A program made the position numbers and the translations under genes. DNA of 64,000 nt from Whitmania pigra (lineage: Eukaryota > Annelida > Clitellata > Hirudinida > Haemopidae): contig JAJTWR010000299.1 in assembly GCA_021613335.1 (NCBI GenBank), forward strand, positions 4,065,501-4,129,500, given 5' to 3'. The notes beneath the pieces are model-generated. The model saw only the letters and a list, made by a program, of their open reading frames with translations, ran no database searches and was not told where the DNA came from. This document shows positions 1,256 through 63,073 of the stretch, piece after piece; the first letter of the stretch is position 1; every line of letters begins with the position of its first letter.

Positions 1256-2190
1256 TCCGACACACCCGTAACGTTTATTGTGCAAGGGTAATGAAAAACA
1301 CGAGACCGAGCCGAGCTTGTTGTCATATTCATCCTGACTAACTACCAGCTTGGACAACCATCTTCCAGACCGTCTGGATTGTGTGGCCAGGAGCTGTTCA
1401 TCAAGGTCGATGTGGTGGACTGACTTGCTCCGTTGTAATAATAATAAATGTTGGCTTCTGCATGACGAAGTGCACATCTTCAATGCCTGACATGACTCGA
1501 GATTGCAATAATCTGCAATACTCTGCTGCACGGCATATGTCGATTGCTTTCTTGAAATCGAGCTTTCGTGTTTGAAGTAAGCGTCGGTGGGTGATGTCGT
1601 CAATGATTCCGGCGACAATTTGATCACGGACGGCTGAGTCCTGGAAATCTCCATACTCACATGTCTTGACGAGTTTCCTGAGTGATATCAGAAAAGGCTC
1701 GGCTGGTTCCTGTTTCTTCTGGTGAAATACGAAGCGTTCGTACACTTCGTTGACTTCTCCTACAAAGTGGCTCTCTAGGGCAGCCATGACTTTCGAAATG
1801 ACATGTGTCTCTTCCTCTGGGAAGTCAAACAAAGCAAATATGTCGTGTGCCTCTGGTCCTACGCAGGCGAGGAAAATTGCAACTTGCCGCTCCTGCGTTT
1901 CATCATGAAGTTTTGTAGCGATTGTATAATTCAAGTATTGCCGCTTGAATCTTCGCCATTCTAGTGCAGAATCTCCTGTTATTCTCATCGATGTGGGAAG
2001 TGGAATAGAAGTCGCCATCTTCTGACACCATGTAACGTTTATTGTGCAACGTTAATGATAAATACGAGACCGAGTCGAGCTTGTTGTCGTATTCGTCCTG
2101 ACACGCAACGTTCCTAAGGCGCATGTCCGAAAGATACTTCAAGCATATTTATAAACATATATAAGCAATATATATTAACAAGACCGGTCG
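1256..2190 (-). mobile_element. deleted gypsy-type LTR retrotransposon
   Basis: On the minus strand the order is LTR end (about 2190 to 2027), a primer binding site starting TGGTGTCAGAAG, a gag reading frame, a short piece resembling the end of pol, and a second LTR end (about 1345 to 1258). The two LTR pieces are clearly alike (a tract at 1260-1345 matches 2028-2105) but not identical. Protease, reverse transcriptase and integrase are missing, so this is an internally deleted copy. The primer binding site shares TGGTGTCAG with the SAP-domain LTR element at 8.2 kb. Confidence 0.65.
1401..2018 (-). pseudogene. LTR retrotransposon gag (capsid) fragment
   Basis: The 205-residue frame begins MATSIPLPTSMRI directly after the primer binding site. 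It reads as a gypsy-type capsid: a W-R-R-F-K start region, helices with an FLACVGPEAHDIF motif, an EVYERFVFHQ segment and a final RLLQTRKLDFKKAIDICRA segment. In family members this region assembles the retroelement particle. No zinc knuckle is visible before the frame ends, and the downstream sequence jumps to a pol-like tail. It is a remnant rather than a host gene. Confidence 0.6.
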
Positions 2191-4448: not shown

Positions 4449-5412
4449 CAGGGATGGGTAAAATCACGTTCAGAGTGATTGGAAATCAAAATCAAGATCA
4501 CCAGACAAAAAGTGATTTGAAATCGAAATCAGGTTCATGCATGTGATTTCACGTTAAAATCAGGTTCACTTGAAGAGTTATTTAAAAAATCATCAAAATC
4601 AAATCACTTTTGACCAAAAGGTGCACGAACTTTTTCAGCACTGTCAATTTTCAAAAGATTTTACTAACTTTTAAAAACAAAAGTTTTTGAAACATCGAAT
4701 CATGTAGTCTGTTCCTTCTTGATGTTTGAATCAGTCCTGCCGATGGCAGTATTATAGCGCACAAAGTGACTAGGGGTGTGCAGGTTAGCAAATAGGTTAC
4801 GTGCCTGCATACGTCGGTAATGGCAACAGTCGTAATGTGTCGTGTTCGAAACCCAGCCTGCACTGTCACCAGTTTCCTTGGGAAGGACCGCTATATAAAT
4901 AGTTACAAGAAGCGCCTCTGACGCTATGCATATGGCGCTATATAAATAAATGAAGTTACAACAAAGATTTTTTTGACTAGGCTTGATTCATAACTGGAGA
5001 TGACATTCCGCATCAGACAAATAAATCATCGTATTGGTGCGGATACTGTTTACCTTGTTAAAAGTGACTTTTTGTTTTATCATTATCAGCAATTTTACAA
5101 CTTTCGTTCACCATGAGGTCGGAATAGCACTAACAACAACAATACAAGTTAATAAAAGGAAGTTGCATCGATTATCAACTGATAATGTCATAAAGAAAGA
5201 TATTATATATTTAAAAAAAACTAAAATTTAAAATTTAAATTTTATATGATTTCGTGATTTTTACATAATAAAAAAATCATCAATCATCAAAAATATGATT
5301 TAAAATAAAAATCAAAATCGCACAACACACGATGATTTTGAATCAAATAATCACAAAGGTGATTTTATTTCGTGATTTTAAATCACTTGACTTGAAATAC
5401 TACCCATCACTG
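4449..5412. mobile_element. non-autonomous hAT element with perfect 8-bp target duplication
   Basis: CATTTCAG occurs at 4441-4448 and again at 5413-5420. The element begins CAGGGATGGGTA and ends TACCCATCACTG, giving matched hAT-type termini. It has no transposase frame. Both arms are full of short AAATCACTTTGATT-like repeats (4455-4620 and 5235-5395). A SINE sits inside at 4776-4961. It was inserted into a pogo/Tigger transposase gene whose N-terminal coding sequence resumes at 5421. Confidence 0.88.
4776..4961 (+). repeat. tRNA-derived SINE, family A, copy 1
   Basis: This matches the four other family-A copies in the window. It has a tRNA-like head with a B box (GTGTTCGAAACCC), a body with CCTTGGGAAGGA, then the tail GCGCCTCTGACGCTATGCAT and GGCGCTATATAAAT. 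The A-box region (TTAGCAAATAGG) is slightly decayed. It lies inside the hAT element 4449-5412. Confidence 0.85.
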
Positions 5413-7383: not shown

Positions 7384-10300
7384 ATGACGGAAGAACAAAG
7401 AAATGAGTTATATGAGAGCAAAACACCTCAAAAGAAGGCTATGGCTAATATCGGAAGTTTATTTAAAAGTGAGGTATATTATATTCGTAAATATTTATTA
7501 TAAAAAATAATTAATTCCATTGTGAGGCCTGTTGGATAGCTGAATTGCGTTACTGCCAGCAGGGCCGTTCAATTTATTTGTAAAAGTTCACTTTACAAAC
7601 AAACATTGGTTAATGTCTAATTAAGTACTTTTGTTTAATTATATCAATTTTAAATAGAAATTGTAAATTTGTTTGGGATTTACATTTAATTGTTTCCTTT
7701 TTAATTAGTTTTTGTTAGGAGCTTGGTGGTTCCGTAAAATTTCTGAAATTGTGCACTGCTTAATTATCGGTTCTTATTTCTGATATTCACAATTATATGA
7801 AAATTCCAGGTTTTTGGGCGACAAAAGATACAATTACAAATAATGAAGCTGATCTGAAAATAAAGACAACTCTCCGGAAACTAATTGTTTATATATTGTT
7901 TTTGGCTGTCCTTTGTATCGGTGCGTATTTAGATTATTTTTTTATTTGCCCACATACTTTTCTTGAAATATTCTAATGTTTCAATTCCAAGTTGCTTTCG
8001 GAATGATGAGTAGCTCGATGTTTTACTACAATCAAGCAATATTTAATTTGTTCCTGGATGCAGAAGTGGAGGAGAAGGGACCTTCATTTACTACGATGAC
8101 ATCAATAGAAGATCTATGGAAAGTAACTACTATTATTGTTGTTGTCGTCATCATTGTCATTAACAATCTCGACACGGGCTGAAGCAGCCCCTTGCATAAT
8201 ACTGTTGTATACTTAGATTTTTGGAGATTAATTAAGTTTATATTGCTAAAATAATTAAATTTGTGTTTAATTATATTTGGCATCTTTTTCGGGCACGTGG
8301 GATCTATTTTTGCTACAGAAAAGCATTCTCGACAATCAACTGACAAACAACGAGAATCAAGACGACCTGGAAGCCCAAATATCCATTTGCATCCTTAAGT
8401 ACCTCAATTCTTAAACGCTTAACTTCTATTATTCAGTTCCGTTAACTGAATACCTGCTCTAATAAACTTATTAGTTAACTTACTTATTTGCGGACCCCCG
8501 GGTTATTTCATTGGTGTCAGGAGTGGGATCCCAAAAAGTAAGTCATGAGCAAGGCATTAGAAGATTTAACTGTTGCTGAAATGAGACGTGAACTTAAGGA
8601 GAGAAAAATGGATCCAAAAGGGTCCAGGGAAGAATTGCAAGATCGTCTGCAGTCGTGGATAATGGATCAGGGTGAGGATCCAGAGGATTATTTATTTCTT
8701 GATCCATTCCAGAAAATGTTTTTGATGGCCTTTGAATCCATAAAGTCAGAGTGCAACTATCTATTCAAGTGGGAAGTGTTGATGGAAGATAAGCAAGCAG
8801 TTGTCATAGAAAAGGTAGCTGAGGTTTCCTCCAACGAGGCTGTCACTAGCTATCAACCAGAGGAAACTCCAACAAGCGTCATAAACATCATGCCAGCTGA
8901 AGCTTCAGCAGTACACCCGATTGCCACACTGGTTTCGGTTGAGAAGGAGACCGAGGAAATTGTAGATGGAAGAACTTTGGGAAGCGAAGTGTTTCTTCCA
9001 TGGAGTGAGGAATCGGGGAAGAAGCTGATGGAAGAGCTGGGTGAGGAGAACGGTGCTGAGGAGACCTTTGCTGAGGTGAGTGAGGGCAGTTTGGTGGTTG
9101 ACGGAGACAGTCCAATAGTAGAGCTTCCCATAAAGATGGGCACTGTAGAGAATAAGGACAACGGTGAGCTGAGGGAGAGTTTCGCAAACTCCAAAGAAGT
9201 CGCGCCAGTGTCCGATGAGCCAGTTCCGTGCACGATTGCCTCGTTGGTGTCGGTTGTGGAGAGGACCGAGGAAATAATTGAAGGAGGGACTTTGGTAGAG
9301 ACCAGAGTGGAGCCTCCTCGCGTTGAGGAATCAATGGAGGAACTGGACTCGGAAAACAGTGGCGATCGATTTGAGTTGGGAGTTTCCAGATTAGATTCAG
9401 CTATGGATGTCGTGGAGATTGGAGCTGCGGATGTCATCGTAACTGAGAGTGGAGATGTTGGCGGTGAGGTGCTTGGCGATAATGAGTACATAGTTGAAAA
9501 GGTTGGATCAATGTCCGAGAAGCTTATTTGTGGAGTTCTCAGCCAGGGCGGGCTTTCTGGCCTTCAAAGGTCGTCGGAGACCCGCGGTGAGCATTTAGTA
9601 CTGTTGTTTGTTTTGCTGATCTTTTTCAGCAAGCGTTTTAGTAGAGATGCGAGAGGAGGACGGACTCGCATTGAAACAATGATGGTACATGGGCACCGTG
9701 TTAGAGATTGTGTCCCGAGAGTAAAAATGAAGGTGGCACACATTCGCCGACTGGCGAAGTACCACGGGGAGCAGCAGTCTGTTCGGGACGAACAGATTTA
9801 AGGAGGGTGTAATGTTGTATACTTAGATTTTTGGAGATTAATTAAGTTTATATTGCTAAAATAATTAAATTTGTGTTTAATTATATTTGGCATCTTTTTC
9901 GGGCACGTGGGATCTATTTTTGCTACAGAAAAGCATTCTCGACAATCAACTGACAAACAACGAGAATCAAGACGACCTGGAAGCCCAAATATCCATTTGC
10001 ATCCTTAAGTACCTCAATTCTTAAACGCTTAACTTCTATTATTCAGTTCCGTTAACTGAATACCTGCTCTAATAAACTTATTAGTTAACTTACTTATTTG
10101 CGGACCCCCGGGTTATTTACTGAATTTAAAATGTTAATTCAATAACGAAGTCAAAATGATTTTCAAACAAGTGATGAAGATGTGATAACGAAGTCGCTTG
10201 ATTCTTTCATAAAAATTTACTGAAAGTTTGTCGCAGACTAACTTTGGCAGATAAGGCAGCATAAAGTTCAGATACATAAAAACGCTGCTTGTTTTTTATT

Positions 10301-13300
10301 TCTAAAACAAAAAAAAATAAATTTTAATTTAACATTTACAGTTTATAAAAAATCCCCTTCTATCAAATCTTTACCCAGAGAAGTGGTATAATGATTTCAA
10401 TTTAACTGACGAAGAAACTGGATTCGTGATGCATGAAAACAAATTACTTGGTGTCCCAAGACTGAGGCAATTGAGAGTGAGAAACAACTCTTGTATAATT
10501 CCAGACAGTTTCCAAGAATTGATTAAGGAATGTTACGACACGTATTCTTCGTATAATGAATTCAAGCATTCGTTTGGAATGAATGGCACCGCGTAAGTTC
10601 TTGCCCATAAAAATATTTCTGTTTGAACTCTAATTTGGATTCTTTGTAACATAGATGGACATATCAAGATGAATCATTTATGAAAAGTTCCAGTTACTGT
10701 GGTCAATTAGCTACTTATGGCGGCGGTGGCTTCGCCCAAGACTTGGGGCTGACTTTAGAGGACTCAAAGCTTCTGGTTGACAATTTGTTTGAGAATCTAT
10801 GGATTGACAGAGGCACACGAGTAGTAATAATAGAATTTACTCTTTATAACGCCAACATAAACTTATTTTGTATTATCAGGTAATTGCTTAATTATTATTC
10901 TAATTAAATTTAATAAGTTAATTTAAATTTGGAATTTTTTATCAGGCTGGCTGGAGAGCTTCCTCCCACAGGGGGAGTATTTCCGTCTTGGAGTCTTCAA
11001 ACTGTAAAACTTCTTAGATATGTTACCACGATGGATTATTTTGTTCTAGCCTGCGAAATTTTCTTCGTAATTTTCCTAGTTTATTACACAGTCGAAGAAG
11101 TGCTTGAGGTGAGAAGTGAATGTCGTTCTTAATACTTATGGCACAAGAGAACATTCCAAAAAGATTTTGATTTTGTTCACTGTACGTGATTTATGATTGT
11201 AAAGGGCATATAAAATTTCAACCACAAATAACCGATTTGCAAATATCAAAACAAATTTATTATCCATAAATTATTGGACTTTATGTTATGTGAACAATTT
11301 TAATGTGGAAGTTTCATTTTCAGATAAAATTGCACAGGTTCTCGTACTTCAAAACTTTCTGGAATATTTTAGACATCGTCAATATTTTAATTGGATACAG
11401 CTGTTGCATCTTTGACATTTATAGAACAGTTTCTGTGGGAAATACGCTAGACAAACTTCTACAAAATCCCACCAACTTTCCTAATTTTGTATTCCTTGGT
11501 TACTGTCAGGATTTGGCGAACTCTGCTCTTGCTATTATGGTATTTTTCTCTTGGATAAAAGTAGGTGCTTTTTGCTATTTATTAATTCATACTCATCTAA
11601 CCTGAAAGCGAAGGCATACATATATGTGTATATATTTTTATTCTTGATGTGCCTTGTACAGATTTTCAAATACATAAGTTTTAACAAAACAATGACTCAA
11701 CTCTCATCAACGCTGAGTAGATGCTCAAAAGATTTAGGAGGCTTTGCCATCATGTTTTTCATATTCTTCCTGGCGTTTGCTCAACTCGGTTACCTTTTAT
11801 TTGGAGCACAAGATCCAGACTACAATTCATTTGGGACCTGCATGTACTGGTTTTGATTCAAATATTTGACCATTCCGCATAACTTACCATTATTGCTATA
11901 TTTTACAGCTTTACATTATTTCGTTTCATTCTTGGAGATTTCAATTTTGCCGCTCTCGAACAAGCGAACCGTGTTCTGGGGCCAATATATTTTGTATCTT
12001 ACGTCTTTTTTGTCTTCTTCATCCTTCTGAATATGTTTTTAGCCATAATTAACGATACTTATTCAGAAGTAAAGTCAGACTTAGCAGAAGCCAAAAATGA
12101 GTTTGAAGTAGGAGAATATTTTAAAAAGGCGAGATCTGTGATTATTGATTTTTATAGGTGCAACCATCACAAATTGTAATTTGTTAACAGGGCGCCATAA
12201 AAATGTTGGATAAGTTACACATCAAGAAAGAAAAGTTGGTAGACATTCAGTCAGCCATGAAAACAGGAGATTTGAACAATGATGGTGTCGTCGACTTTGA
12301 AGAATGGCGTCACAACATGAAACAGTTGAAATATTTTAGAAATTTCAAACTCAACAAATTTCTAATCATTACTTGTTTTATTTCTTAGGAAAGGTTATGC
12401 CGATGCCGAAATTGAAGCGGTATTTGCCAAATACGATACCGATGGAAACCGAAATTTGGACGAAAAAGAACAAAATATGATGGAATCAGATTTGGAACAT
12501 CAAAAGGTTGAAAGTACATTTCAGTTTTTAGAGTGAGGTAATTTATTCAGAGAACAGTGTGATTTTAAGCTAATTCCGGGGCCTCATTTCAGCTTTTTCC
12601 AGGAGATATTTTCCTAACAAACCCTTGTCCCTTTCCCGCAATAAGGTCCCTGGTACGGCTAGGATTTGGGGTTAACTAACGGCGCCGCACAAAAATCCTT
12701 AACAACTTGGCACACAAATTAGCAGGGACGCATAGAAGGCAAAATAGTGGGGGGGGGGCAGTTTTTCCAAACCTCTAAAAACGTTTACTAAATATTTTGT
12801 CGATATTTATTGTTCGCTAACTGGAACTATTATGACCAACTCAAAAATTTGATAAAATTTAATATCGCAAAAGTCATGATACATTAAAATATGCGTGCAA
12901 TGTCTTCCGAATAATAAACATAAAATCTATTTTTTATACAAAAATAAAAACATCTCCAATAGTGTTTGATCCTGAACTTGATAATCAAATGAGCCTGACC
13001 CCAAAAAATCAAAATAAGATTATATACACATTTGACATTGTATATTTATAATAAAAAATTGAAATATGAATCACCTTTTTAATCTTCAGTAACTTGAATT
13101 CGCCTTTGTTTTAACTTTGCCCGAGAAGAAATAACATCTGCTAATTTAATCTCATCTAATAATTCTCTTTCACAAGCTATGTGGAACTCTTTGTTGTTTT
13201 AGTCTTTCATCTGTCATAGTAGTAGAGTATTTTTAACAAACTTAAGCTGGCTGTGTTTTCTCTAATTAATTGAAAATCCTGCTGTTATAACAAATCGCAC

Positions 13301-14979: not shown

Positions 14980-16178
14980 TAAAAGGTAATTTATTTTATT
15001 TAATTGCTTTTATTTATTTTTTTTTATTTTTTTTTATTTTATTTATTTTTTATTTATTTGGCAATGAGTTCAATAATAACATATTTTGTTATAAGTTTAT
15101 AAGGTTATTAGTTAGATGTTTCAAATTGTAAGCTGTCGTTCCAAAAGCATTTAAAGCATTAAAATGTGATAATTATAAATATATCATTCATTTTAAGAAC
15201 TTGTTTAAGAGATTTAGTTCTTATTTTAGTTTACTAGTTCAAAAATTCAAATTTTATCAAAATTCAAGATCTTCTGGCATATCCTCACGCAAAACAACTA
15301 ATTGCTTAAGGCAGCCGTTAATATCTTGTACCACGACGCTCATCTACTTAACTTGCCGCCGCCAATATTTACTGTTAATAAAATTTATGCGAAATTCAGG
15401 AATCGTTTGTCTTTTTAGAGCCCATGGATATATTCGCAGACACCAAAGAATTTTAACGAAAGATGAATTCAGTTATTTTAACTTTCATATTTTTTGAAAC
15501 GTGAACCCAATATGTTCACTCTTCACCAATTCAAAAAAAATTTCATTGATCACGAAAAACTGCTGTTTTTATGACTAATTCACTGTTACCACATAAATAA
15601 ATATTTGCAAGAATATATAAGATGTAATTAAATTAAATTGATGAATATGACTGTTATCATAAATTCGGCGTGAGCAAATTCAAAATACAACTAAAGATGA
15701 ACTGCAAAAGAAAAAAAGAGCATGTAGCAACTTAAAGTCATAATTACATTTTATTTAGTATTTATTTTTTAAAAGACTAAATTACTAAAATAAAGAACAT
15801 TATTTCACTAGTTCAAATGTTATCGCTTAATTACTTAATGACTGCAAGATATACCAACAATTCTTTTAACAATTGATACGTAGAGACGGTAATATAACAT
15901 ATAAATAATATGGAATTATGTATGATCTCAACAATTGCAGCATCAATACTTTTACTTTTAAAGTAACTTTTAAATACTACAACGTTTTGCTTTTACTTAA
16001 GTACATCTTTGAATAAATACTTTTACTTTTACTTAATTTCTGAAATGTGGTACTTTTTACAACACTGAGTATTTTTATGTAAAATATTGTGGGATAAGCA
16101 AATACTGTAAACAGACAACCGGCTCTAGAACACAGTTGCAATGGGTTGTGTTTATGAATCAGTGCGTCGTATGTGTGC
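14980..16178. other. AT-rich flank downstream of polycystin-2
   Basis: Long T-runs at 15010-15060 and no recognisable exon. The part 15795-16060 is a dispersed repeat also found at 18145-18385, sharing CTAGTTCAAATGTTAT and the ACTTTTACTTAAGTA tract. A short minus-strand frame at about 15269-15350 begins MSVVVQDINGCLKQL; I do not recognise it. Confidence 0.4.
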
Positions 16179-16352
16179 GTGCAGGATATCCGAATGGTGC
16201 CTGCATACGGCGGTAATGGAAACAGTCGTAATGTGTCGTGTTCGAAACCCAGCCTGAACTGCCGCCAGCGCCCTTGGGAAGGAGAGCTATATAAATGGTT
16301 ACAAGAAGCGCCTTTGACGCTATGCATATGGCGCTATATAAATGAAGTTACA
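16179..16352 (+). repeat. SINE family A, copy 2
   Basis: Head GTGCAGGATATCCGAATGG, B box GTGTTCGAAACCC, and the full LINE-like tail with GCGCCTTTGACGCTATGCAT followed by GGCGCTATATAAATG. It is close to the copy at 62883. Confidence 0.85.
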
Positions 16353-16402
16353 AAGAAGTTACAATGCGTACTAGATTTATCATTAATTGTTATTTCGACA
16401 AG

Positions 16403-22100: not shown

Positions 22101-25100
22101 TTCAAAACATCTTTTGTCCATTAACAAAATTAATTTTTTTATAAAGTTTATATGACAAGTCTTATGTTGTGGATTTCGATGTTGGGGAATTTTACTATAT
22201 AGTTGCACACCTCGTACTTGTTAGTCTTAACTTTACTTACTTTACAATCATTTATTGTTTGGGTTTTATCATTTTGTTCACATTTTGTTCTTTCATGTAT
22301 TAATTCAGAGGCATTTGCACAATTTCGTTAAAAGTTAAGGGGTTCCCATGATGGCAGATGCCAAAACTGACCAGTTAGCCCAATGATGTATAAAGTTTTA
22401 TTACAAAAGTTACAGTGTTTAGTGAACAACTTTGGTCTAAAATGGAGAAAGATAGAAAGACTAGTTAAAAAATGTTGCAGCAAGGCATGGGATGTTGTAT
22501 TTAATAGAGAATATCATGATCAAAATTTATTATCAAATTATCTAAAAATTATATATATATATATATAAAACATATTTTAAATTTTCTCTTAGCTTGCCTC
22601 AAAACTTTCTCCTATAACACACATTATTTCTGGCAATATGCCAAATTCATCTCAGGTAACTTTGGCAAAGCTTTAATTATATTTAAGAATATTGTAATAA
22701 TCTTACTTTTATCTCTTGCTTGGTTGTCATTTTTGAAAAGAGAGATTCAAAAGAAAAAGAAAAATTTGAGAGAAGAATTATGGAGGTAATTGGATTGCTT
22801 TATTTCATGTTGTTAATTATCAATGCAGTGATGTCAGAAAAGTAAAATGTTATGTAAGTTATTCAAAAAAATGACAGCATGAATTGTGATAGGAACTACA
22901 CAGAATGTTCAATGAAGCTGATTCATTTTACTTTACTCTGGATGGTGCCAATTTGACAAGCAATATTCAGGCCATGCAAGAAAAAATTGGAAAGAATGAA
23001 TTTCAGGAAAGTTCATGGAAACTTGCTGATGATCACTACTTTTGGAATAAGCACATGCTAAATGAACTCATTAAGTTATCTGAGGTGAGTTTGATATTGC
23101 TAGGATGATAAAGTAACATCAGATATTAGTCATTTTCTGTTTGGAGCCAAAGCTAACTAAACTAAAATGTTTTTACATATTCACTGTTTTGAGCACATCA
23201 CTCTAAATGTTTGAAATCTTTTAGCACAATAAATTAGCAAATGAATGGATTCTCCCAATGATTCAAGGCTATGTTCAAATTGAGGAATGTCCAATCAAAT
23301 TTGAAGATGAAGAAGATGTTGTTAAAATGCCATCAAGTGATGATTTCTTAAAGATTAAAATGTGCATAATTTCTAGAAGATCAAGGTTTAGAACAGGTGA
23401 AATAATGTAAATTATTTAGTAAACCTTGGTTGAATACAAAGTTAAGGGGTCGCATCCTTTGCACTAAGTATTTTATGTGTTTAAGTAGTATGGAGATTAA
23501 CTGGTCTTGTAAATCCAGGAGGAGAGAAGAGTGAAAAAATTATTTATTTAACAAATTTTCTTTAGTCATTTGAACTGATGCTTAAATACCATCCATGGTA
23601 CCTGACCATCGAATGTTGGGGGTCGTATGTTTTGTGATCTTTTGGCAGTATTTGGTCTTACCTGTATAGGGTTGTTTTGAGGTTTTTCCTATGGTACTTC
23701 TTCCTGTTTGGCTTTCAAGAGATTAATTTCTGCTTACAAACCTTTCATCTTTACTTGAAAACCTCCCATCTTAGTTCTAAATTGCTTCTTAGATTGTTTA
23801 TCTCCGACTTCAGACCTGTTCCTTGATGCTCCATTGATGCACAGTGATTCTCAAATATTACAAAGAAGTCTTCTTTCATTATTCTCAGCAAAAATATAAA
23901 CTTCTGGATCCTCACCCTGGTCTAATATCCATAACTGCAGACGATCTTGCAATTCTGCCTTGAATCCTTTCGAATCCATTTTTTCTCCTTGAGTTCAGGC
24001 GTCATTTCCCCAAACACTTAAATCTTCTAAGACCTTGCTCGTGGCTTACTTTTTGGGATCTCATTCCTGACACCAATGAAATAACCCGGGGTCTGCAAAT
24101 TAGCAAGTTAACTAATAAGTTTATTAGAGCAAATATTCAGTTAACAGAACTGAATAACCAAAGTTAAGTGTTTAAGGGATTTGAGGTACTTTAGGATGCA
24201 AATGGATATTTGGGATTCTGAGTTGTCTGGACTCTCACTGATTGTCAAGTTAGGTGATTAATGAGATGCTTTTTATAGCATTAATAAAGAGATGAAAATT
24301 CATAAAGAAGATATCAAATATAATTAAATATAAATTTAAAATATAAACTTCACATTTACAACACTACACCCTCCTTTAATCTGTTCGGGATGAACCGTGA
24401 TACTTTGCCAGTCAGTTGATATGTGTCACTCATTTTTACTATGGGGACACAATTTTTAACATGGTGTCCATGTACCATTAATGATTCAAAGCGAACTTGT
24501 TGTCCACCCACAGTGTCACCATAATGCTTGATGAAAAAGATACTCATCAAAACAAATAATAACATTCAAGGCTTGCCCCATGAATTCTGAAGGCCAGAAG
24601 GTTTGTTATGGCTGAGAATTCCATAAGTGAATTCCTCAGACTCAACTTCTTCAACCTTGGACTCATGACCATCGAGCACTTCATTGTCAACATCTCCGTT
24701 CTCCGCTGCAATGATAGTGGATATCATTCCTCTGCAGCCTTGACCTCCACGGCGTCCACCACTGAATTGAATTCAGCCACCTCCAACTCAAATTACTCGC
24801 CACTGTCCTCCCTGTTCACTTCCTTCACCAATTCCTCAGCGCAAGGAGGCTCAACTCTGGTCTCTACCAAAGTCCTTCCTTCAATTATTTCCTTAGTTCT
24901 CTTTCCAACCAATACCAACGAGGCAACCATGCACAGAATTGGTTCGTCGGAGACTAGTGTGACTTCTTTTGTATTTGCGAAACTCTACCTCAGCTCAGCA
25001 TTTTTCTCATTCTCAACATTGTCCACCCTTATGTGAAGTTCCTCCATTGGACTGCCCTTGTCAACCACCAAACTGCCCAAGTCAGCTAAGGTCTCCTCAG

Positions 25101-28100
25101 CACCATCCTCTTCACTCAAATCTTCCCTTGGCTCCTTCCCCGATTCCTCACTCCGTGGAAGACTTTGATTTCTCCCAAAGTGCTGTTTCCTTGGTTTTTG
25201 TCTCAACCGAAACCAGTGCAGCAATCGGATACACTGCTGATGCTCCAGCTGGTATGGTATCTTTGGTGCTTTCCAGAGTTTCTTCCATTTCGTAGTTGTC
25301 GGCAGCCTCAATGAAGGAAATCTCAGTTACTTATTCCATGACAACAGCTCCCAAGCGCTCCCTGGACACGTTAAAGCTTCCAAATTGTGCAACGAGTTCA
25401 TCTCTGAAGCTTTTTTTTTATTGCGGATCAATAAATAAATAGTCCCCTGGATCTTGCCCCTGGTCTAATATCCATTACTGCAGGTGATTTTGCAATCCAT
25501 TTTTCTCAACTTAAGTTCACGTCTCATTTCACCAACACTTAAATCTTCTAAGAGCTTGCTCATGGCTTACTTTTTTGGGATCCCACTCCTGACACCAATG
25601 AAATAACCCAGGGCTCCTCACATTATTTAGTTAACTAATAAGTTTATTAGAGCAAGTATTCAGTTGATGGAACTGAATAACCGAAGTTAAGTGTTTAGGG
25701 AATTTGAGATACTTTAGAATGCAACAGGATATTTGGGCTACTGAGTTAAATTAATTTGTCTGGATTCTCGTTGATTGCCAAATTATTATTGAGATGCCTT
25801 TTATAGCAATAATAAAGAGACATCATGTATAAAGGAGATACCAAATATAATTAAATATAAATTTAATTACTTTAGCAATATAAAATTAATTATTCCATGC
25901 CACATTTACAACAATGTTATATGAAAAAAGTTGAAGACTGCTTTTATTTTTAGGCACCCGATACAAAAGAAGGGGTGTTGACAGTGATGGTCATACAGCC
26001 AACTTTGTTGAGACTGAACAGGCAAATCCTTTTTTTTGATACTTTGATAATTTATGTGATAGTAACAACCATCACTTTTATATGAATTACATTTTTCTCT
26101 TTATTGTTCTAGAATTAAGAGATTTTTATTGATTTCATTTTAATATTTTATCAATTATAACTTTTTATTATTTTATATCATTTATTGCACTCAATGTGTT
26201 ACCAATATTAATGCAAGAAATTCAGCAAAATTGATCAGATTGTCATAAATTTAATATATTGTACATATTACATTCCTGCAAATACTTTTGGATCAGTGTC
26301 AATGATTTTCTGTGACACTGCCAATGTTACCAAATGCTAAAAATTGGTGCAATCAGTTAAAACATTGCAATCAGCCTTATTTAAATAAATATATATTTAA
26401 TTCGTTAAAAAGTAATTCTTCACATCTCAGATTTTGGAGTTTGTGAATCATGTGGTTTCCTTTACTCAAATCAGGGGCTCAATTCCTTTACATTGGAGTC
26501 AGTCTGGAATTAAGTACAAACCTACTCCAAAAATTGAGAAAGGTAATTTTTTGAAGTGGAGATATAATCAGATCCTACAAATATTTTTAGTTATATTTAA
26601 GTTGCTTTAAAAAGATCGTTACCCCAAAATAATCTTATTTGATGGCTCATAAACTCAGATAACTCCGATAACAGATATGATTCTGGTAAGAGAGTCCTCA
26701 GACATATACATAACAGTGTTTCCATCAATGAAAATTGTTTAAATTATTTATTTGTCTTCATAAGCAACATTTGTTCACAGCCCATCCTGTATGCCAGGGA
26801 GTGCCATTGGGTAGGAGTGGCTAGTACATTCTAGATCAATTTAAAAAGTGAAGTTTTTAAAAATCCTGCTGGGTATGGGGTCAAGGAGAACAAGTTTATA
26901 AAGTGTATTTTGCATGTGTTGCAATGAATTTATTAAAGAGGTTGATGTAGTATACGTTAAGAGAGTTGCAGCAGTTCAGCCATGAGGGAATTTCAGCAAT
27001 GGACCTGTTACTGGTAAATTGTTGGAGCGAGCTATGTAGAACCATTCAAATACTTTGCCATTGGCTTCCTTATCATTATAAGGCCTCATCTTCGACATTG
27101 TCTTATCTTTACTCGCTTGCTTTGACTTCTTTCCATTTCTTGTTAATCTCTTCTTCCATTTGATGTTTAATATCTGATGTCAGCTAACTTTGAAGTCCTC
27201 GCTACATTTTGAGATAAAATTAAATCTTTCACAAGCAGAAATTACCTAAATTTTTCCAACGGAGAATCCATCGCTAACAATTTATTGAAAATCAATCAAA
27301 AGTCGCATAAAAAGGGCAAAACAGGACTAAGCAGGAAGTTCGAAATCTAACATAAGCACAAATCCAAAGTTGCTTTATCGCCCACTTTGTTTTTGCAAAT
27401 TTTATTCAAAAAAAGTTTAAAATTTCAAAAACAAATATGCCTATACGCAAGTTTAGGAACCATTTCAGGCATGCTTTTGTTAAAGTTTGAGGTTAAAGGT
27501 TCTTAATTTAGCACTGTCATTAAGCCTCAAATTGTAATACAAAAAAAAAATCCGTTCTTTAAAGAAATGTCCCAAGACGCAGTTTTTCCCTTTATTGAGG
27601 TGTCTGTGTTGTCAGTTTTTACTGTATGTGCAAGAGCATCTGCTTGGTCATTAGAGTGCACGGATATTCTGAACTTGTGTTCAAATGTGAAAAAGATCAA
27701 TAACATTTTTCTATGGATTTCCACTGATATTCATATTTCTTTACTAAATGGTATTGCAATTAATTGTGATCTTGAGTAATGTTCTCTCTAATTTTGTTCT
27801 GTAAAATCATGTAGAAAATCATAGTGTTTTAGCAGCACACTTTTTTGTGCCTGTGCACCTGAATTTTGTTCACAGGTGTCATCCAAGACAACAATGAAAT
27901 CAGTGTTATTTGAAACTCAAAGTTATCTTTATTCATTGTAACAGCTTAATTAAAAGTGTTATAAATCGACATCACTTATAATGATGCAAGTCTGCAATAT
28001 TAAAATACAGTGGAACCCATTTTTATCAACCTTATATAACAATCAATCTATATTAAATATTATATAAATTATCTATATAAAATTTCAATTGCTGTTGTGT

Positions 28101-36003: not shown

Positions 36004-38700
36004 TAATAATAATAATAATAATAATTAATTTATAAAGCGCCATGTGTGTAGCGTCAGAGGCGCCTTGTGTCTTCGCTGATCCATGAAGCCCTGGGTCTTC
36101 AGGTGGCGTTTGAGGAGCTCCAGGGATGGCTGGGCTCTGACGATGGAAAGAAGTCTGTTCCAGACAGCTGGAGAGGCGTACGAGAAGCCTCTGTTTGGGA
36201 GGGATGATTTATGTACGGTTGGTAAAGTTGAGTGGCTGACGATGAACGAAGACCAGATGTTTGGCGGCGATCTAGTAGATGATGGAGAAAAGGTGGGGTG
36301 GATGTTGCTAAAGTGTGATATGTCATGAGGGCAATTTTGAAAGTGATACGACTATGGATAGGCAGCCAGTGCAATTTCTTCAGACGGTCCATGCTATTGA
36401 GGGTAGAGTTGATGAGGACGAGCTTGGCAAGCTTGTTTTGGACGCGTTGCAAAGATTGAATTAAAGAAGCAGATGTGCCATAAAGAAGACAGTTACAATA
36501 GTCTGAGCGGGAGAGAACAAGGCAGCGTGCAACGGCGGAAGTTATATCAACGGAAAGTAGAGGATGTGCCGGATAGCCCAGATGAGATGATTGCAGGATT
36601 TGATAATAGAAGCGGAATGTTCTTTAAAGGTGAGGTGTGAATCAAAAATAACACCAAGAAACTTGAGGGTAGTAGAGGAAGGGAGGAGGGTGCCAGCGAT
36701 GCTTATAGAAAGAGGAGGCGACAGAGTTTTGAGGCGAGTGGGTGTGCCAATAAACATAATTTAAGATTTCTGAGGATTCAGTTGGAGAAAGTTAACGAGA
36801 TGCCAATCATTGATGGCATCCGTGCACTTCCTCAAATTCTCGAGTTGATCTGAGATGTTATGGCTGGAAAGAATAGAGCAAAGACTTGTGTCATCGGCGT
36901 ATTGATGGAAGGATATGTTGAAGTTAAGAATAATGTTAGACAAAGGTGAAGTATAGGTTGTGAAAAGCAAAGGTCCCAAGACAGAGCCTTGAGGAACACC
37001 GGCGAGTAGTTCAACTGGAGGGGAGAAGTGATCACCTAGTTTAACATATTGGGTTCTGTTGGAAAGGTAAGATTGTAGCCAGGAGAGTGCAAGGCCATTG
37101 ATTCCAAAGTCAGACTGAAGTCTCTCCAATAATATCTGGTGGTTTATGGTATCAAAGGCAGCCGAGAGGTCGAGTCCGACCATCACAGCGCAATTGCCCT
37201 TGCCACAGATGTCGGTGAGATTGTTGAAGATGTGTGAAAGGGCTGTTTCTGTAGAGAAACCAGGTCTGTAGGCAGATTGGAGAGATGAGAAGTTAGAGGA
37301 TGCTGTGATATGAGGTCGGATTCTGGAGAGAATGAGTCTTTCTAGCAGTTTTGACATGGTAGAAAGGTTGGAGATGGGTCTGTAGTTGGTAGGCAAGCTT
37401 GGATCGAGGCTTGGCTTTTTTAGAAGGGGAAGGACTTGGGCCCTCTTGAATATGGACGGAAAAGTGCCAGTACTGAAAGATAGGTTTGCTAGCTTAGAGA
37501 GGATTGGGGATAGAATTAGAGCGAATTTCTTGAGAGGGAGTGTATCGAGAGGAGATGACTTGTTGAGCAGTGAGTGAATAAGCTTGAGAACCTCTTCCGA
37601 AGACATAGGTTTTAGGACTGAGATTAGGGTGCCTGAGAATTGCCTGGCTGGAAAAGATGAGATGGTTGATGAGGCGAGAGTGTTGGCGATTGATTCGTGG
37701 ATTTTGGTAATCTTCGAGATGAAAAAAGAGTTAAAAGAATTGACCAAGTTTGAGCACTCATCATCGGTATAATATTGAGGAGGACGGCTGTGAAGCAATT
37801 TGTGAAGAGAGCGCCACATGGAACGGGGATTTACATCAGACTTGAGTTCTTCCTTGATGGAGGAAGCCCTTGAGTTTAAGATCGCAATCTTGGCTGTTTC
37901 CTTGACAGACTTGTAGAGTTGCCTGGCGACGTCATTGCGTTGACGAAGATAGCGACGTTCCAAGCGCCGGCAGTTTTTCTTTGCTTCACGAGAAAGCTGG
38001 TAATTAGGATGGTGACCGACTCGAATGGAAAACTTCCTGATTGGGCCTGTGTCTGTCGAGGAGCTCCTCAAGAGATTTATGGACCTGTGTGGCGAAGCCG
38101 TCAGTGTCGAGATCGCTGATTAGGAGTTCTTCAGAAAGGCGAAGAAGGTCTTTCTCAAAAACGCCCAAGTCGATTCTTCTGATGCTGCGGCGATGAATGA
38201 TACAGGTGGAGGGGGGAGGTTTGTCAATGGAGATATTGCAGGAGATGAGATAATGATCAGAGTAGGTGACTTCCTTTATTTTTATACTGGAGACGAGGCT
38301 ATCGTGTGATGATGGGGTGATGAGCAGATCTAGCGTGTGGCCTTTGGAGTGAGTTGGAGAAGTTACATGTTGGAGGAGTCCGTGGGAGTCGATCAATTTT
38401 TCTAGATGTTCATCAATGATGGTACCTGAACCAGCGGCGTTGAAGTCTCCACAAATGATGAAGGGTAGGTTGTGGGAAGAAATAAACTCGATGAGGTCTT
38501 CAAACTCTTTTAAGAAAGATGACGTGACGGGGCCAGGTGGACGATATAAGGATGATATGATGAAGGATGTCTTGCGATTGTTGAGCTTGAGGTGGAGGTC
38601 TTCGAATTCAGCATGAGCAGGAGATCCAATGTTGGTGGTCTTCAATTCATGACGGTGAATGACAGCTATGTCACTCGTAATAAAACAAATGTCGTAAGAT
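36003..38700 (-). mobile_element. CR1/L2-type LINE, 5'-truncated
   Basis: On the minus strand, an endonuclease-like domain (38700-38004; IICGDFNAAGSG, TLDLLITPSSHDS, YSDHYLISCNI) is followed by a reverse transcriptase (38071-36761; LPTNYRPISNLSTMSKLLER, LDLSAAFDTINH, GVPQGSVLGPLLF, HQYADDTSLC) and the C-terminal region (36757-36099; LKFLGVIFDSHLTFKEH, MQRVQNKLAKLVL). One frameshift near 38040 and a stop after LNPQKS near 36760 break the frame. The 3' end runs through GGCGCCTCTGACGCT and GGCGCTTTATAAAT into (ATT)n repeats at 36003-36025. The first part of the endonuclease domain is lost. Confidence 0.9.
36761..38071 (-). pseudogene. LINE reverse transcriptase coding region
   Basis: A 436-codon open frame holds the entire reverse transcriptase core, from the helical region before motif 0 through the YADD catalytic box. 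It is interrupted downstream by one stop and upstream by one frameshift relative to the endonuclease frame. It is one or two changes from continuous, so the insertion is fairly young, but as it stands it cannot make a full protein. Confidence 0.85.
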
Positions 38701-39079
38701 GTGCTAGAGTGAATAATAAAGCATTATTATAAATTGATAAACTTGAATACTGAAAAACGTTTTTAGCGTTAACCCTAAAATTATCTTAAATTGAATAAAA
38801 AATATATGTATATAATGGACTTTTTTTTAGATTTTTCAGGTCGCAGGTCAGGAGCAGGAGATCCAATGTTGGTGGTCTTCAATTCATGACGGTGAATGAC
38901 AGCTATGTCACTCGTAATAAAACAAATGTCGTAAGATGTGCTAGAGTGAATAATAAAGCATTATTATAAATTGATAAACTTGAATACTGAAAAACGTTTT
39001 TAGCGTTAACCCTAAAATTATCTTAAATTGAATAAAAAATATATGTATATAATGGACTTTTTTTAAGATTTTTCAGGTC
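38615..39079. repeat. 237-bp tandem duplication across the LINE 5' boundary
   Basis: The sequence from GAGCAGGAGATCCAATG at 38615 to 38851 is repeated nearly perfectly from 38852 to about 39079. The unit contains the LINE's 5' coding edge plus flanking non-LINE DNA, so the duplication happened after LINE insertion. Confidence 0.9.
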
Positions 39080-39495
39080 GTATTATGGTGAAATTTTATT
39101 AGGTAGGACTTCTCTAAAGAAACATGAGTTACTGTAAGCGACATGTTGCCTTGATTTAAATTTTTTTTAATTCCTCTGCCTGGACTGATTTGTAGAATTT
39201 GCACTTAATTCTTAGCAAAAGTGAAAAACTAGTGAGGAATACTCCAAAGCCATATTACACACTTCTTCCAAATTTGATCCTTGCTTTCTATTTTGAACTT
39301 AAGTTGTTGGAGAAAATAGGGGTTGTTGTAACGTTTCTCAACCACCGCATTTACGTCTTACGGATAAGCGACTTCCTCTAAATTATTTGACGTTAATTAC
39401 TTCCTTAGATTTTAAATAACTTCGTTATATTTTTTAGGCCTGCTTACTCAAAATAATTTTAATTAAAGATGATAATACAAATGCAACAAAACGAC

Positions 39496-51455: not shown

Positions 51456-54400
51456 ATGGAAGAGCATTTTTCGTAAGTTTACTTTCGGATGCCTTTACTA
51501 ATTTTTGTTTGGGGTTATAATACAATGTAATATAATTTAAAAACATGTTTATATTTACTTGTAACTAAGATACCTTGCCTGCCATGCTTTTACTATTTAC
51601 TTAACATGGAAAGCTTCGAAGATTTTTTCTTACTTTGAGATCAACCGTTTAAAACTCGTTGAAAGGTTGTTGCCAAAAATTATAAATGGAGGAATAGCAG
51701 GCATTGTTGGAGTGACTTGTGTATTTCCAATTGATCTTGTGAAGACCCGGCTACAAAATCAGCAAGTGGGTTTGAATGGAGAAAAGATGTACAAGAATGT
51801 GTTAGTTTTTTTGCAATTATGGGCAACACATTTACTATTACGAATACTTATAAATACAAAATTATTTTGTGCATTTTTTGTTTGTTAGACTTGACTGTGC
51901 AGTAAAAACATTTAGGAAAGAGGGATTCTTTGGAATGTATAGAGGTATTTCTTTTGAATTTTTTTCTAATGAGATTAATAAAGTCTCACATTAAACATTA
52001 CTTTTAGGATCAGCAGTAAATTTGCTCTTAATCACACCTGAAAAAGCTATCAAACTTGTTGGTAATGATTTCTTTCGACACCATCTCAAAACTGCAGAGT
52101 ATGTTGATTACTTTCTGTTTGATCACTTTTGAATTGAATTATAACAACATTATATCCTATCAAAACATCTTGATGTGGCTTACAAATTAAAGAAAATCAT
52201 AAGAAAATTCTTTATCACAATCTTGTTCTATTTCTGAAATTAACATTATTTAACTAGTGATTTTTAGATCTTAACATTTAAATTCCTATTGTAAATAGCA
52301 AGTGCATATTTTTGGAGCTAATAATAACCATTAACATTTAAACATTATTTTGGTTCACCATTCTGCATTGAAGAAGTTTGTTTTTAGCATCAATATTTGT
52401 TTCAAGCCATCTGTTGATATTAATGTGGAATGATGACTTTGTTCTGATGATGTGTTTAGATGTGCAAAGTTCAACAAAGCAAGTTTTTGAAATCTAAAAG
52501 CAGCATTGAGCTAGCTTGCATATTGCTCATTTTAAATTCCGAAATTGAACATCATATGATCTGCCGCAGCAATCAGTTGACTTTGACTCGAGAGATGGTA
52601 TCTGGTGCTGGTGCAGGTGCATGTCAAATCATTATAACCACTCCTATGGAACTGCTGAAGATACAGTTGCAGGATGCTGGTAGAACAGGTCATTTTCATA
52701 TTAATTGCTGGTATTTTCAACTAAAACTTTTTTTAGTAAAAAATTATTTCTAACATTTCATAATTAGTTCTTCCATTATGTAGTAAGCTTTCGCATCAAG
52801 GAGAATTTTAATTTTGTGGAAGGTTTTGGTCATTGTAAGGCACATAACATTGGGATCTCTTAATTTCCGTGACTTGCAACTTTTGATTATGACAATCGAT
52901 CTCTGAACAAAAATCCAATATTGGGGAATAATATCACAAATGGTTTGGCTTGGGATTGTTGGGTGAACAGAACTGACATAGGAATAGTTGGAGGCCAGGT
53001 TCTGCAAGGAGACATCATCCTTGCCAGTCATCTTCCCATTTCTCAAAATCTTTGAACTAAGCTGATAATTGCAATGTCTCGTTTTTGGATTGATGTGTGG
53101 CTTAGGTATATGTTGTTTGAACATCAAAGAACTATGAACTCTAGCAAGCTTTTACATAAAAGTATTAAAAAGTATATGTTCCTCACATAATTCACAAATG
53201 CCATTCAAACTGCTTATAAGCAGCTTCTAATCCAAATGTTTGATAATAATCACTTTTTTAGATTTAATCAATTTTCCAATCTATCACTATTGAAGGTGGT
53301 TTTTTTAATTTAGCAGCGAAAACACAACTAGAAAATGCTGGTTTAACCCAAGTAGCAAGACTTTCTGCAACTAGATTGGCTTTGAACCTTTTGAAAGAAA
53401 GGGGAATATTTGGTCTTTATAAAGGCCTTGGTGCAACCTTTGCTAGAGATGTAACATTTTCAATGGTTTATTTCCCACTTTTTGCTCATTTTAACAGTCT
53501 GGTTAGTTCAGTATTTGATTTTTGTTATTTTTTAGATTTAGATCATTGGGATGATTGTGTCATTAAATTATTGAATGTTTAGGGTAAAAGGCGAGAAGGG
53601 AGCAATCAAGCTGTGTTTTACGTATCGTTTGCAGCTGGCCTTGCTGCCGGAAGTATTGCCTGCTTCTTGGTGACTCCTCTTGATGGTTAAGCACTTGTTG
53701 TCATTTGTATTTTAATTACTTCCTGTATTATGTTTTGATTCTTCATTAAAAGTTGCATCTTTATGTTAAATTAGTTGTGAAGACAAGACTACAAACAATT
53801 ACTAAAGGTCAAGGTGAAAGAAGTTATGCTGGAATTTTGGACTGCTTGCTGTGAGTGATTTAATTTTTATAATTGTTAATAATGCAATGAACATTGATTC
53901 AATCATATTAATTATGTATCCTGACATAAGTAGTGGATGTAATGTATTCAGTGAATCTTCAAATGTACAGTACTAACCATTTCATAATGAGTACTGGGGA
54001 CCTGAGTTATCCAAAAAGAGTGATTTTGTTTGAAATGGGATTTTTTGTCCAACCTGATGTCATTATGTTCTCACCAGAATATTATTATTATTATTTAAGC
54101 ACTAAAAGAAAGAAAATTTTTTATTAAACCATAAACAAAATTAGTATGTAATGTATAATAATGATTCCATGTGCAGCTTGATGGTATGCACACCGACACC
54201 TACAGAAGTAGATACATCTATGGCATGCAAGTTAGCCGAATGGGTTATGTGCCTGCATACCGCGGTAATGGCAACAGCCGTAATGGGTCGTGTTCGAAAC
54301 CCAGCCTGCACTGCGCAACCGCCCTTGGGAAGGAGCGCTATATAAATGGTTTCAAGAAGCACCTCTGACACTATGCATATGGTGCTATATTTTTTATAAA

Positions 54401-61310: not shown

Positions 61311-61648
<338 letters not shown>

Positions 61649-61649
<1 letters not shown>

Positions 61650-61654: not shown

Positions 61655-62882
61655 TTGAAAACTATGGAACGTTGATTTCTTATCGTTTGATAAAAAAACC
61701 TTTTGCTATCAGTCTAGTAAAAGACTTGCCTACTTTAACTTGAGAGAATTGATTTAGGTATATTGATTAGAATTTGCAATAAAGTCCGTTCTGATAATCT
61801 ATTAATTTTCTGGGACTCACTAGATTGGTGATCTGTTCGCATCAAATTTTGGATTTGGCTGCATTAACCTTTAATTCCCTGTCTAATTTTCATGTTGGAA
61901 TATGTCTTATTTTATTTCTTTATACAGATATATAGAAATAATGTCATCCAAACTAAGCTAGACAGGGCTACCATATTTGCTAACATGCAGATTGTTTTTG
62001 CTTGTGATTTATGGTCTTTAATATATTTTGATAGAAGGTATTCTTTATCAGATCTAATTAGATTTGATTAGAAATTTGAGGGAGCTTGGAAGGATTTTTT
62101 TCATTTATCTGGAGCTGTAAAGGGATTTTACAGATAATGTGCTATCTTGAAATGAGCAGTCTCTAAATATTATCCAAACTATCACAAAATTTCCGTGAAT
62201 GTTGAATTCCATAAGAATGGACAAAATCAGAAACTGCAACAGAAAATTCAAGAATTTTGTGCTTGGCTACTCTATTGCCCAATTTTAATGCATTTCCCAA
62301 GGGATGTCATATCAGTTTTTTTCTGTGGGCCTTGTCAGCTTGATCAAATGATCTTTTTTGCTTCTTGTAGAAGATGCTAGCAACCCTAGTCGAGATAATG
62401 AACACAGTTCTGTGAGTAAAAAGTAGTGTTTATTTGTTGAAATTTGATATTGAATTTGTTGAAAATTGTTTCAAATGCTAATGGGGTGAATTCTGACATT
62501 ATCAGATAGCCCTTGTGCTTTTGGATGCAGAAATCTAGCAGTTGGATTTTTGCAATTGGTTGATTGATCGTTAAATTCATTATATTGTTTGGGTTGGAAC
62601 ATGTGAGTGAACCTTCAGGCATCCAGAATTTGTTCTATTCATAGAAATCCAAGGGAATCATTGATTTCAGAGCTATGCCTTTCCCCTCATAGAATTTACT
62701 GGATTTGCAAATGATCGAGAAGGACTCAAATGTCTTCTCCAAATGGTTTTTCATCAAAAAGTCAACCTTTTGCTGTTGCAAGGGTGGGACAAGAGACTTC
62801 TGCTAGTTGAAAATCATGGTGGTTTTTTTTGTAAAGTAACAAATAAAATTAACTTTTACTAATAATATAATATATTTGGGGC
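61655..62882. other. intergenic sequence without recognised gene
   Basis: AT-rich with short frames only. No TE terminus was recognised before the SINE at 62883. Confidence 0.4.
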
Positions 62883-63062
62883 GTGCAGGATAGCCGAATG
62901 GGTTACGTGCCTGCGTACGGCGGTAATGGAAACAGTCGTAATGTGTCGTGTTCGAAACCCAGCCTGCACTGCCGCCAGCGCCCTTGGGAAGGAGCGCTAT
63001 ATAAATGGTTACAAGAAGCGCCTCTGACGCTATGCATATGGCACTATATAAATGAAGTTACA
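62883..63062 (+). repeat. SINE family A, best-preserved copy
   Basis: The head has a 7-bp acceptor-like stem (GTGCAGG with CCTGCAC), a perfect A box TAGCCGAATGG and a B box GTTCGAAACCC, with tRNA class II-like spacing (Leu/Ser type). The body is CGCCCTTGGGAAGGAGCGCT. The tail is GCGCCTCTGACGCTATGCAT then ATGGCACTATATAAATG. ATATTTG occurs on both sides and may be the TSD. Confidence 0.9.
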
Positions 63063-63073
63063 ATATTTGAACC

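Follow-up and report, generated by a model that had tools for sequence, protein, structure and literature searches.

Background

TRIMs are short long terminal repeat (LTR) retrotransposons that have no coding capacity and usually measure under ~1 kb, and in mouse the IAP I-delta-1 element is said to be mobile with an internal deletion that leaves a gag-pol fusion open reading frame (ORF). TRIMs are non-autonomous and have been reported from animals too (PMC6934838, PMC3532108). In plants, according to the parts of the reports drawn on here, TR-GAG elements consist of LTRs and a single Gag-type ORF, and one of them was shown to transpose without encoding pol (PMC8704663). In wheat, RLG_Quinta carries a Gag-related ORF with a domain of unknown function and no reverse transcriptase (RT) or integrase, has the LTR ends and the primer binding site (PBS) of its full partner RLG_Cereba, and shows recombination around gag (PMC11302176); the high-copy RLG_Sabrina and RLG_WHAM, which lack a full polyprotein, stand beside the full partner RLG_Wilma, and some of them encode unique short proteins in place of gag-pro (PMC9744471). 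The element considered here lies at positions 8203–10118 of a stretch of 64,000 nucleotides (the window) from the genome of Whitmania pigra (GCA_021613335.1, contig JAJTWR010000299.1, positions 4,065,501 to 4,129,500, forward strand). Its only gene encodes a SAP-domain protein, and we consider it probable (roughly 0.72) that its family is a semi-autonomous satellite of a Ty3/gypsy element whose Gag also carries a SAP domain.

Paired LTRs, a PBS, a polypurine tract and a target duplication were all found, as in other non-autonomous LTR retrotransposons, and a partner with common LTR ends and PBS is present in the same genome. Like Quinta with Cereba, the element is short, combines a Gag-related ORF with an extra domain and has its partner's LTR ends and PBS; unlike Quinta, which in the sections available keeps the GAG domain, it retains only the Gag N-terminus together with an in-frame integrase tail, and its host is an animal. 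It differs from TR-GAG, whose single ORF encodes the complete GAG, capsid included, and from Sabrina and WHAM, whose unique segments are not linked to a Gag N-terminal module in the available parts of their description. With TRIMs it shares shortness and an animal host, but it has a protein gene (a selected ORF of 418 codons within 1.9 kb), and it differs from IAP I-delta-1 in its new middle segment and its clade. We place it within the semi-autonomous kind already described for TR-GAG and Quinta/Cereba, as a variant and not as a class of its own. The initial sequence-only reading had called the design uncommon, which holds, although there are close precedents in plants; in the parts of the open-licence literature on SAP domains and retrotransposon Gag that were consulted, no such element was apparent. 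Short LTR elements are mostly seen as passive passengers; the SAP-only family keeps a selected protein without capsid, RT or integrase core.

Structure of the SAP-only element

The insertion at 8203–10118 was confirmed as a real SAP-ORF LTR element on the forward strand. As the sequence-only reading had proposed, its terminal segments (8203–8508 and 9813–10118) form a direct repeat with 100% identity, and the interior contains a PBS (TGGTGTCAGGAGTGGGAT, 8512–8529, complementary to a tRNA-Leu-like 3' end), one SAP gene of 418 codons (8545–9801) and a polypurine tract (AAGGAGGG, 9800–9807, which matches the end of the partner on contig C131). When the interior was searched for pol (RT, RNase H and integrase core) by ORFs and Pfam, none was found, and a Pfam scan of the 418-codon protein returned SAP only (residues 5–40, 8557–8664, E 1.6e-9), a domain that is common to the partner's Gag. 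The proposed LTR length of 306 bp describes the repeat in the window, while 15 other LTR-paired copies fix the family LTR at 308 bp, with TG...CA ends and a 4-bp target duplication. The 5' LTR accordingly spans 8203–8510 and is preceded by the duplication ATAC (8199–8202, from flank comparison), and its part in common with the 3' LTR ends at 8508. Four bases are gone at the 3' end across the LTR end and the duplication (TTATTT directly followed by AC, against ATAC in the 5' flank), and the shorter length was read because the 3' LTR (9813–10118) lacks its final CA together with two duplication bases (AT). Both partner 5' ends that were read (C131 and C11) carry the same 18 PBS bases, and three tRNA-like 3' ends on C329 fit TGGTGTCAGGAGTGGGAT; the primer is presumably tRNA-Leu.

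The ORF is a composite of three parts in one frame: the SAP N-terminus of a Gag, a distinct middle and, from the partner, the tail of integrase. Residues 1–60 match a 215-residue piece of the C131 Gag (45%, E 3e-13), and the rest of the protein has no significant match to this piece, its capsid-like part included, which rules out that the ORF is a complete Gag. At the other end, the last ~26 residues, the stop, the purine tract and the LTR start correspond to the end of the C131 integrase (86% over 97 nt, same frame, C131:55050–55300), so that 9721–9801 encodes the C-terminus of integrase and closes with the same stop codon as in the partner. Between them lies the middle region (residues 101–392, 8845–9720), in which residues 101–345 are acidic (55 D/E vs 16 K/R) and constrained and residues 346–392 neither; a repeat search found an internal direct repeat in it (63 nt, 78%, at 8918–8980 and 9233–9295). 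The idea of a lone gag-like DNA-binding protein therefore stands for the Gag SAP N-terminus and needs correction for the rest, with no capsid-like part, an own middle and an integrase tail. The AlphaFold model of the protein is confident only at residues 1–57 (mean pLDDT 34.7). The hydrophobic stretch at 351–369 was rejected as a membrane anchor (peak hydropathy 1.42, in an unconstrained region). Opposite the SAP ORF runs an antisense open frame (8853–9563, minus strand, 236 aa stop to stop; 307–317 aa in L059–L061), probably a by-product of codon composition, though it persists across copies.

The gypsy partner

On C131, an element with an LTR-to-LTR span of 5.47 kb has a 5' end that matches the window element at 84% over 311 bp, including the identical PBS; in its Gag, SAP (E 3.8e-7) is joined by a coiled-coil-like stretch and by what we take, from a sequence motif, to be a capsid-like region. 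The partner on C11 matches at 95% over 275 nt, a match that begins midway through the LTR, takes in the PBS and the leader and reaches codon 33, the limit of the sequence fetched; in the first half of the LTR the two elements differ. RNase H (PF17919) and H2C2 integrase (PF17921) matches at C131, C11 and C220 assign the partner pol to the Ty3/gypsy (Metaviridae) type, which would make the SAP-only element a gypsy derivative. A 2051-aa open frame at C220 was discarded as an artefact of a stretch read as N. These alignments show that the SAP-only element is homologous at both ends to a gypsy element of this genome: at the 5' end over the second half of the LTR, PBS, leader and SAP codons, and at the 3' end over the integrase tail with its stop codon, the purine tract and the beginning of the LTR, while a single other segment, in the same frame, lies between. 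A gypsy element with common LTR ends and PBS, suggested as a search target by the sequence-only reading, was thus located (C131, C11), and this SAP-Gag partner is low-copy; in the matches listed, about 21 places have a Gag fragment that extends past residue 140 of the C131 Gag piece, several of them with stops, and one of these places is in the window.

The SAP-only family in the genome

The genome (178 Mb) was searched with the LTR (1062 candidates, 40 of them scored and listed) and with the ORF (501 candidates, 100 scored, best first); both rankings favour young copies, and the family fractions below are not genome-wide rates. A 27-base pattern of LTR end and PBS occurred 230 times (≤ 3 mismatches) vs 0 times for the reversed control, which rules out a chance repeat. 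Among 100 listed sites of this pattern, 46 are followed directly by a SAP-only ORF start from a set of 93 (the 100 ORF matches less seven that start elsewhere than at SAP), 32 further sites enter another listed SAP start, and 22 have no SAP start among the matches listed. Four lie upstream of a listed same-strand gypsy pol (C11, C30, C131 and C220), and at a fifth (C66) an intact SAP-only ORF comes first and pol only beyond it. These counts draw on scored pol candidates numbering 150 of 339 and 150 of 411, and pol matches were typed on contigs with a listed PBS site, with one match missed on C183, > 1 Mb from any listed site. A majority of copies with gag-pol between the same LTRs, which would have spoken against the proposed family, was not seen.

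The 40 listed LTR matches comprise 24 that form 12 pairs and 16 singles, nine of which were fetched with ~4.8 kb on either side and proved to be six solo LTRs and three paired SAP-only copies. The 16 paired copies found by LTR measure 1.83–1.95 kb and have the new middle in common, six of them in broken form, with an ORF of 388–418 codons in 10 of them; the 15 other than the window element have an interior of 1.2–1.3 kb without RT, RNase H or integrase core. Both LTRs were present at 28 of 30 loci found by ORF, placed as in the 16 LTR-found copies, and 23 of these 28 have perfect 4-bp target duplications, mostly ATAT, ATAC, ATAA or GTAT. Together these are 39 distinct paired copies (16 + 28, minus five loci in both sets), none with pol, a count to which only the 16 LTR-found copies contribute evidence on pol. 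These 16 share one pol-less structure, and the loss of pol is a stable trait of the family and not a random deletion, as first suggested. The LTRs are 100% identical in 18 of the 39: the family is young and has recently multiplied. Tandem LTR-interior-LTR-interior-LTR arrays of the element were observed at two loci, L060 (C161:14000–23900) and L061 (C220:793000–799500).

A second SAP-only family (C11:1494205–1496257, C20:1205423, C99:1599779 and C380:98984; open frames of 432–441 aa) carries the middle at 40–44%, and its one checked locus (C11:1494205–1496257) is flanked by C131-type LTRs (96%).

An old SAP-only copy in the window (25895–24079, minus strand), which the sequence-only reading had placed at 24.4–25.6 kb, is real: aligned with the window element over 1,943 columns, it is 71% identical. 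It had been overlooked, however, that its second LTR continues into a decayed Gag piece. Its 5' LTR (25601–25895, 76.8%) and decayed interior (24365–25600) are followed by an LTR (24077–24363) that, by LTR comparison, is common to the old copy and the next unit, which is of the autonomous type. The latter retains the PBS and a decayed 5' part of Gag (23560–24076, 36% to residues 3–158 of the C131 Gag piece, five stops). This Gag piece (24078–23560), adjoining the old copy via the shared LTR, spans SAP to the start of the capsid-like region.

Selection on the SAP-only ORF

The ratio of non-synonymous to synonymous substitution rates (dN/dS, omega) was estimated from 30 ORF-found ORFs and 10 of the 16 LTR-found ones (> 380 codons), minus one (359 codons), i.e., 39 ORFs, 34 of them distinct. 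In a first set, the comparison of frames (0.55 in the true frame vs 0.60 to 1.16 in the other five) was weak alone, and neutral simulations with the LTR mutation spectrum were therefore added. Over 17 disjoint pairs from the 34 distinct ORFs omega was 0.52 (0.42–0.67), vs 0.71 (0.61–0.82, 60 runs) in the simulations, which put the neutral yardstick at ~0.71 and not at 1, so that the constraint is real but moderate. The neutral decay that would have told against the family was not seen, and 88 of the best 100 of 501 ORF matches have no internal stop.

By region, omega was 0.20 in SAP (neutral 0.77), 0.53 in residues 101–250 (neutral 0.71) and 0.48 in residues 251–345 (neutral 0.81), each below 40 of 40 simulations whichever of three mutation models was used, and 0.52 over residues 101–392 (neutral 0.74), also below 40 of 40; deep pairs agree with near pairs on the regional constraint. 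SAP and residues 101–345 are thus selected as protein.

Relatives outside the genome and exchange with the partner

Two SAP-only proteins (P0001, P0002) come from outside the W. pigra genome. The best matches of P0002 to this genome, among those listed, reach 63% in SAP and 38–49% in the middle, and P0002 most simply derives from another species. Two further proteins (P0003, P0004) consist of SAP and a coiled coil followed by a capsid-like region; in SAP they are 93% and 98% identical to P0002, which makes an origin in the W. pigra genome unlikely, and we assumed one species for all four. P0002 and P0003 are 76% identical over 182 residues, up to where the capsid-like region begins. Since SAP-only proteins exist elsewhere beside Gags with the same N-terminus, the SAP-only design is probably old. 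A search for relatives of residues 101–345 alone found none, which says little, since P0001 and P0002, both of which contain these residues, escaped it as well. L042 and P0001/P0002 have different ORF ends, and the end of the SAP-only frame looks dispensable.

Within a lineage the SAP of SAP-only proteins and Gags is close (79–82% over 33 residues to the C11 Gag; 81–98% over 57 residues between P0001/P0002 and P0003/P0004), and SAP-only proteins compared across the two lineages reach 47–61%. As the middle is common to both lineages, the simplest reading would be that the N-terminus was exchanged with the partner after the lineages split. At L028 (4830–6663) the 5' LTR is of the SAP-only type and the first half of the 3' LTR of the C11 type (98.6% over 138 bp), a combination expected if strand transfer joined two cDNAs within a particle or if ectopic recombination followed later.

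Interpretation and alternative explanations

The satellite would descend from a full element that lost capsid, protease, RT and most of its integrase, and the partner would now mobilise it: its RNA would be packaged in particles of the low-copy partner's Gag-Pol and primed by the tRNA that the partner uses, and the integrase of the partner, which would read the same LTR ends, would carry out integration. Through the shared N-terminus the SAP-only protein may join the partner's particle or pre-integration complex, where SAP would bind DNA or chromatin and favour the satellite's own RNA or cDNA. It probably acts largely in cis, because the protein of a non-autonomous element would be kept only if it helps its own RNA, or through group benefit. 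Satellite and partner also seem, from their sequences, to swap segments, as RNAs in one particle would. The sequence-only reading of the locus is, on this evidence, supported and largely right.

Several observations weigh against this interpretation. The capsid-like region was called only from the motif and helices, with no gag family found by profile search in the C131 Gag; Retrotrans_gag in P0003 is sub-threshold (E 0.048), and a fold search with the P0003 Gag model gave no match with E below 4. The 1619-aa open frame of the C11 partner locus is a program count, and the frame may contain breaks. The partner sequence read amounts to three pieces (1,101, 251 and 443 bases), and the SAP-only middle could stem from an unread part of Gag-Pol. 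In the ORF, residues 46–100 are at or above neutral and residues 346–418 neutral, and the constraint on the middle is moderate (bootstrap 0.39–0.71, lowest simulation 0.55). As to exchange, L028 is embedded in a simple repeat and may have come about by ectopic recombination, which its flanks do not decide; the C131 SAP is 42–46% identical to window-lineage SAP (residues 1–57), vs 47–60% between the latter and P0001/P0002. SAP and LTR type do not go together in the second SAP-only family, whose N-terminus is only ~46% identical to the C131 Gag despite the C131-type LTRs (96%) of its one checked locus.

A more specific version of the satellite interpretation, which we put forward tentatively, is that the protein is a self-encoded hijacking factor: the Gag N-terminus would dock on partner particles, the acidic domain and SAP would steer packaging or chromatin delivery to the element's own copies, and the pairing would have persisted across species with the docking module occasionally re-synchronised by recombination. 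The second family, whose SAP does not follow the LTR type, speaks against it.

Alternatively, the element could be a mutualist comparable to Quinta, adding a structural Gag N-terminus to particles that both forms use. Gag's SAP is shared (in P0002/P0003 the coiled coil too), and the pair Quinta/Cereba is a precedent, but a protein without a capsid-like region is unlikely to form particles as the GAG of Quinta could, and in the window protein the helix at 54–94 is a low-confidence prediction and residues 46–100 are unconstrained, so that we consider this possible but doubtful. Somewhat less likely still is a pure parasite with an idle protein, its ORF open through youth and RNA-level constraint (a packaging signal, recombination with the partner). 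The tail and linker regions without protein constraint, the many very young copies (the 18 of 39 with identical LTRs) and a SAP part that could be refreshed from the partner by recombination all fit it; it does not account for residues 101–250 and 251–345, which, unmatched in the partner sequence read, are constrained against all simulations, models and pair depths, nor for a middle kept at 38–49% in a SAP-only protein from outside the genome.

That the protein is a trans-dominant inhibitor of partner particles, kept by host selection, is improbable: truncated Gag inhibitors are known from other systems and Gag pieces with a capsid-like part are few (the about 21 places among the matches listed), but the constraint extends across 34 distinct ORFs of a multiplying family, where a self-defeating protein would not be selected; no search aimed at a single domesticated copy was made. 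Independent random deletions of full elements, locus by locus, can be dismissed, common as deletion derivatives generally are in LTR families, since the 16 paired copies that were not picked by ORF share one structure and the new middle, and a SAP-only protein with this middle exists outside the genome.

With the satellite interpretation, the family makes it possible to test if a satellite can code for a factor to the advantage of its own RNA, its two types of LTR first half with one common PBS offer a marked system for measuring co-packaging, and the SAP-domain Gag hints at how an animal gypsy element might contact chromatin.

Other features of the window

Downstream of the element, an exon at 11485–11856 matches PKD_channel (Pfam E 2.4e-22), which fits an element inserted into a PKD2-like gene or next to one; as the frame upstream of the element (7976–8182) has no Pfam match, a position in an intron is only putative. 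An open frame at 1401–2051 (minus strand) is presumably like another gypsy-type Gag, and 36099–38723 (minus strand) is what we take to be a non-LTR retrotransposon with endonuclease-like and reverse transcriptase-like frames. A tandem duplication of 232 bp (99%) lies at 38612–39080, and a dispersed repeat of ~160–190 bp has four copies that are 86–93% alike (4773–4961, 16177–16353, 54222–54390 and 62878–63063). The frame at 61311–61649 (plus strand) presumably encodes a NEDD8-like protein.
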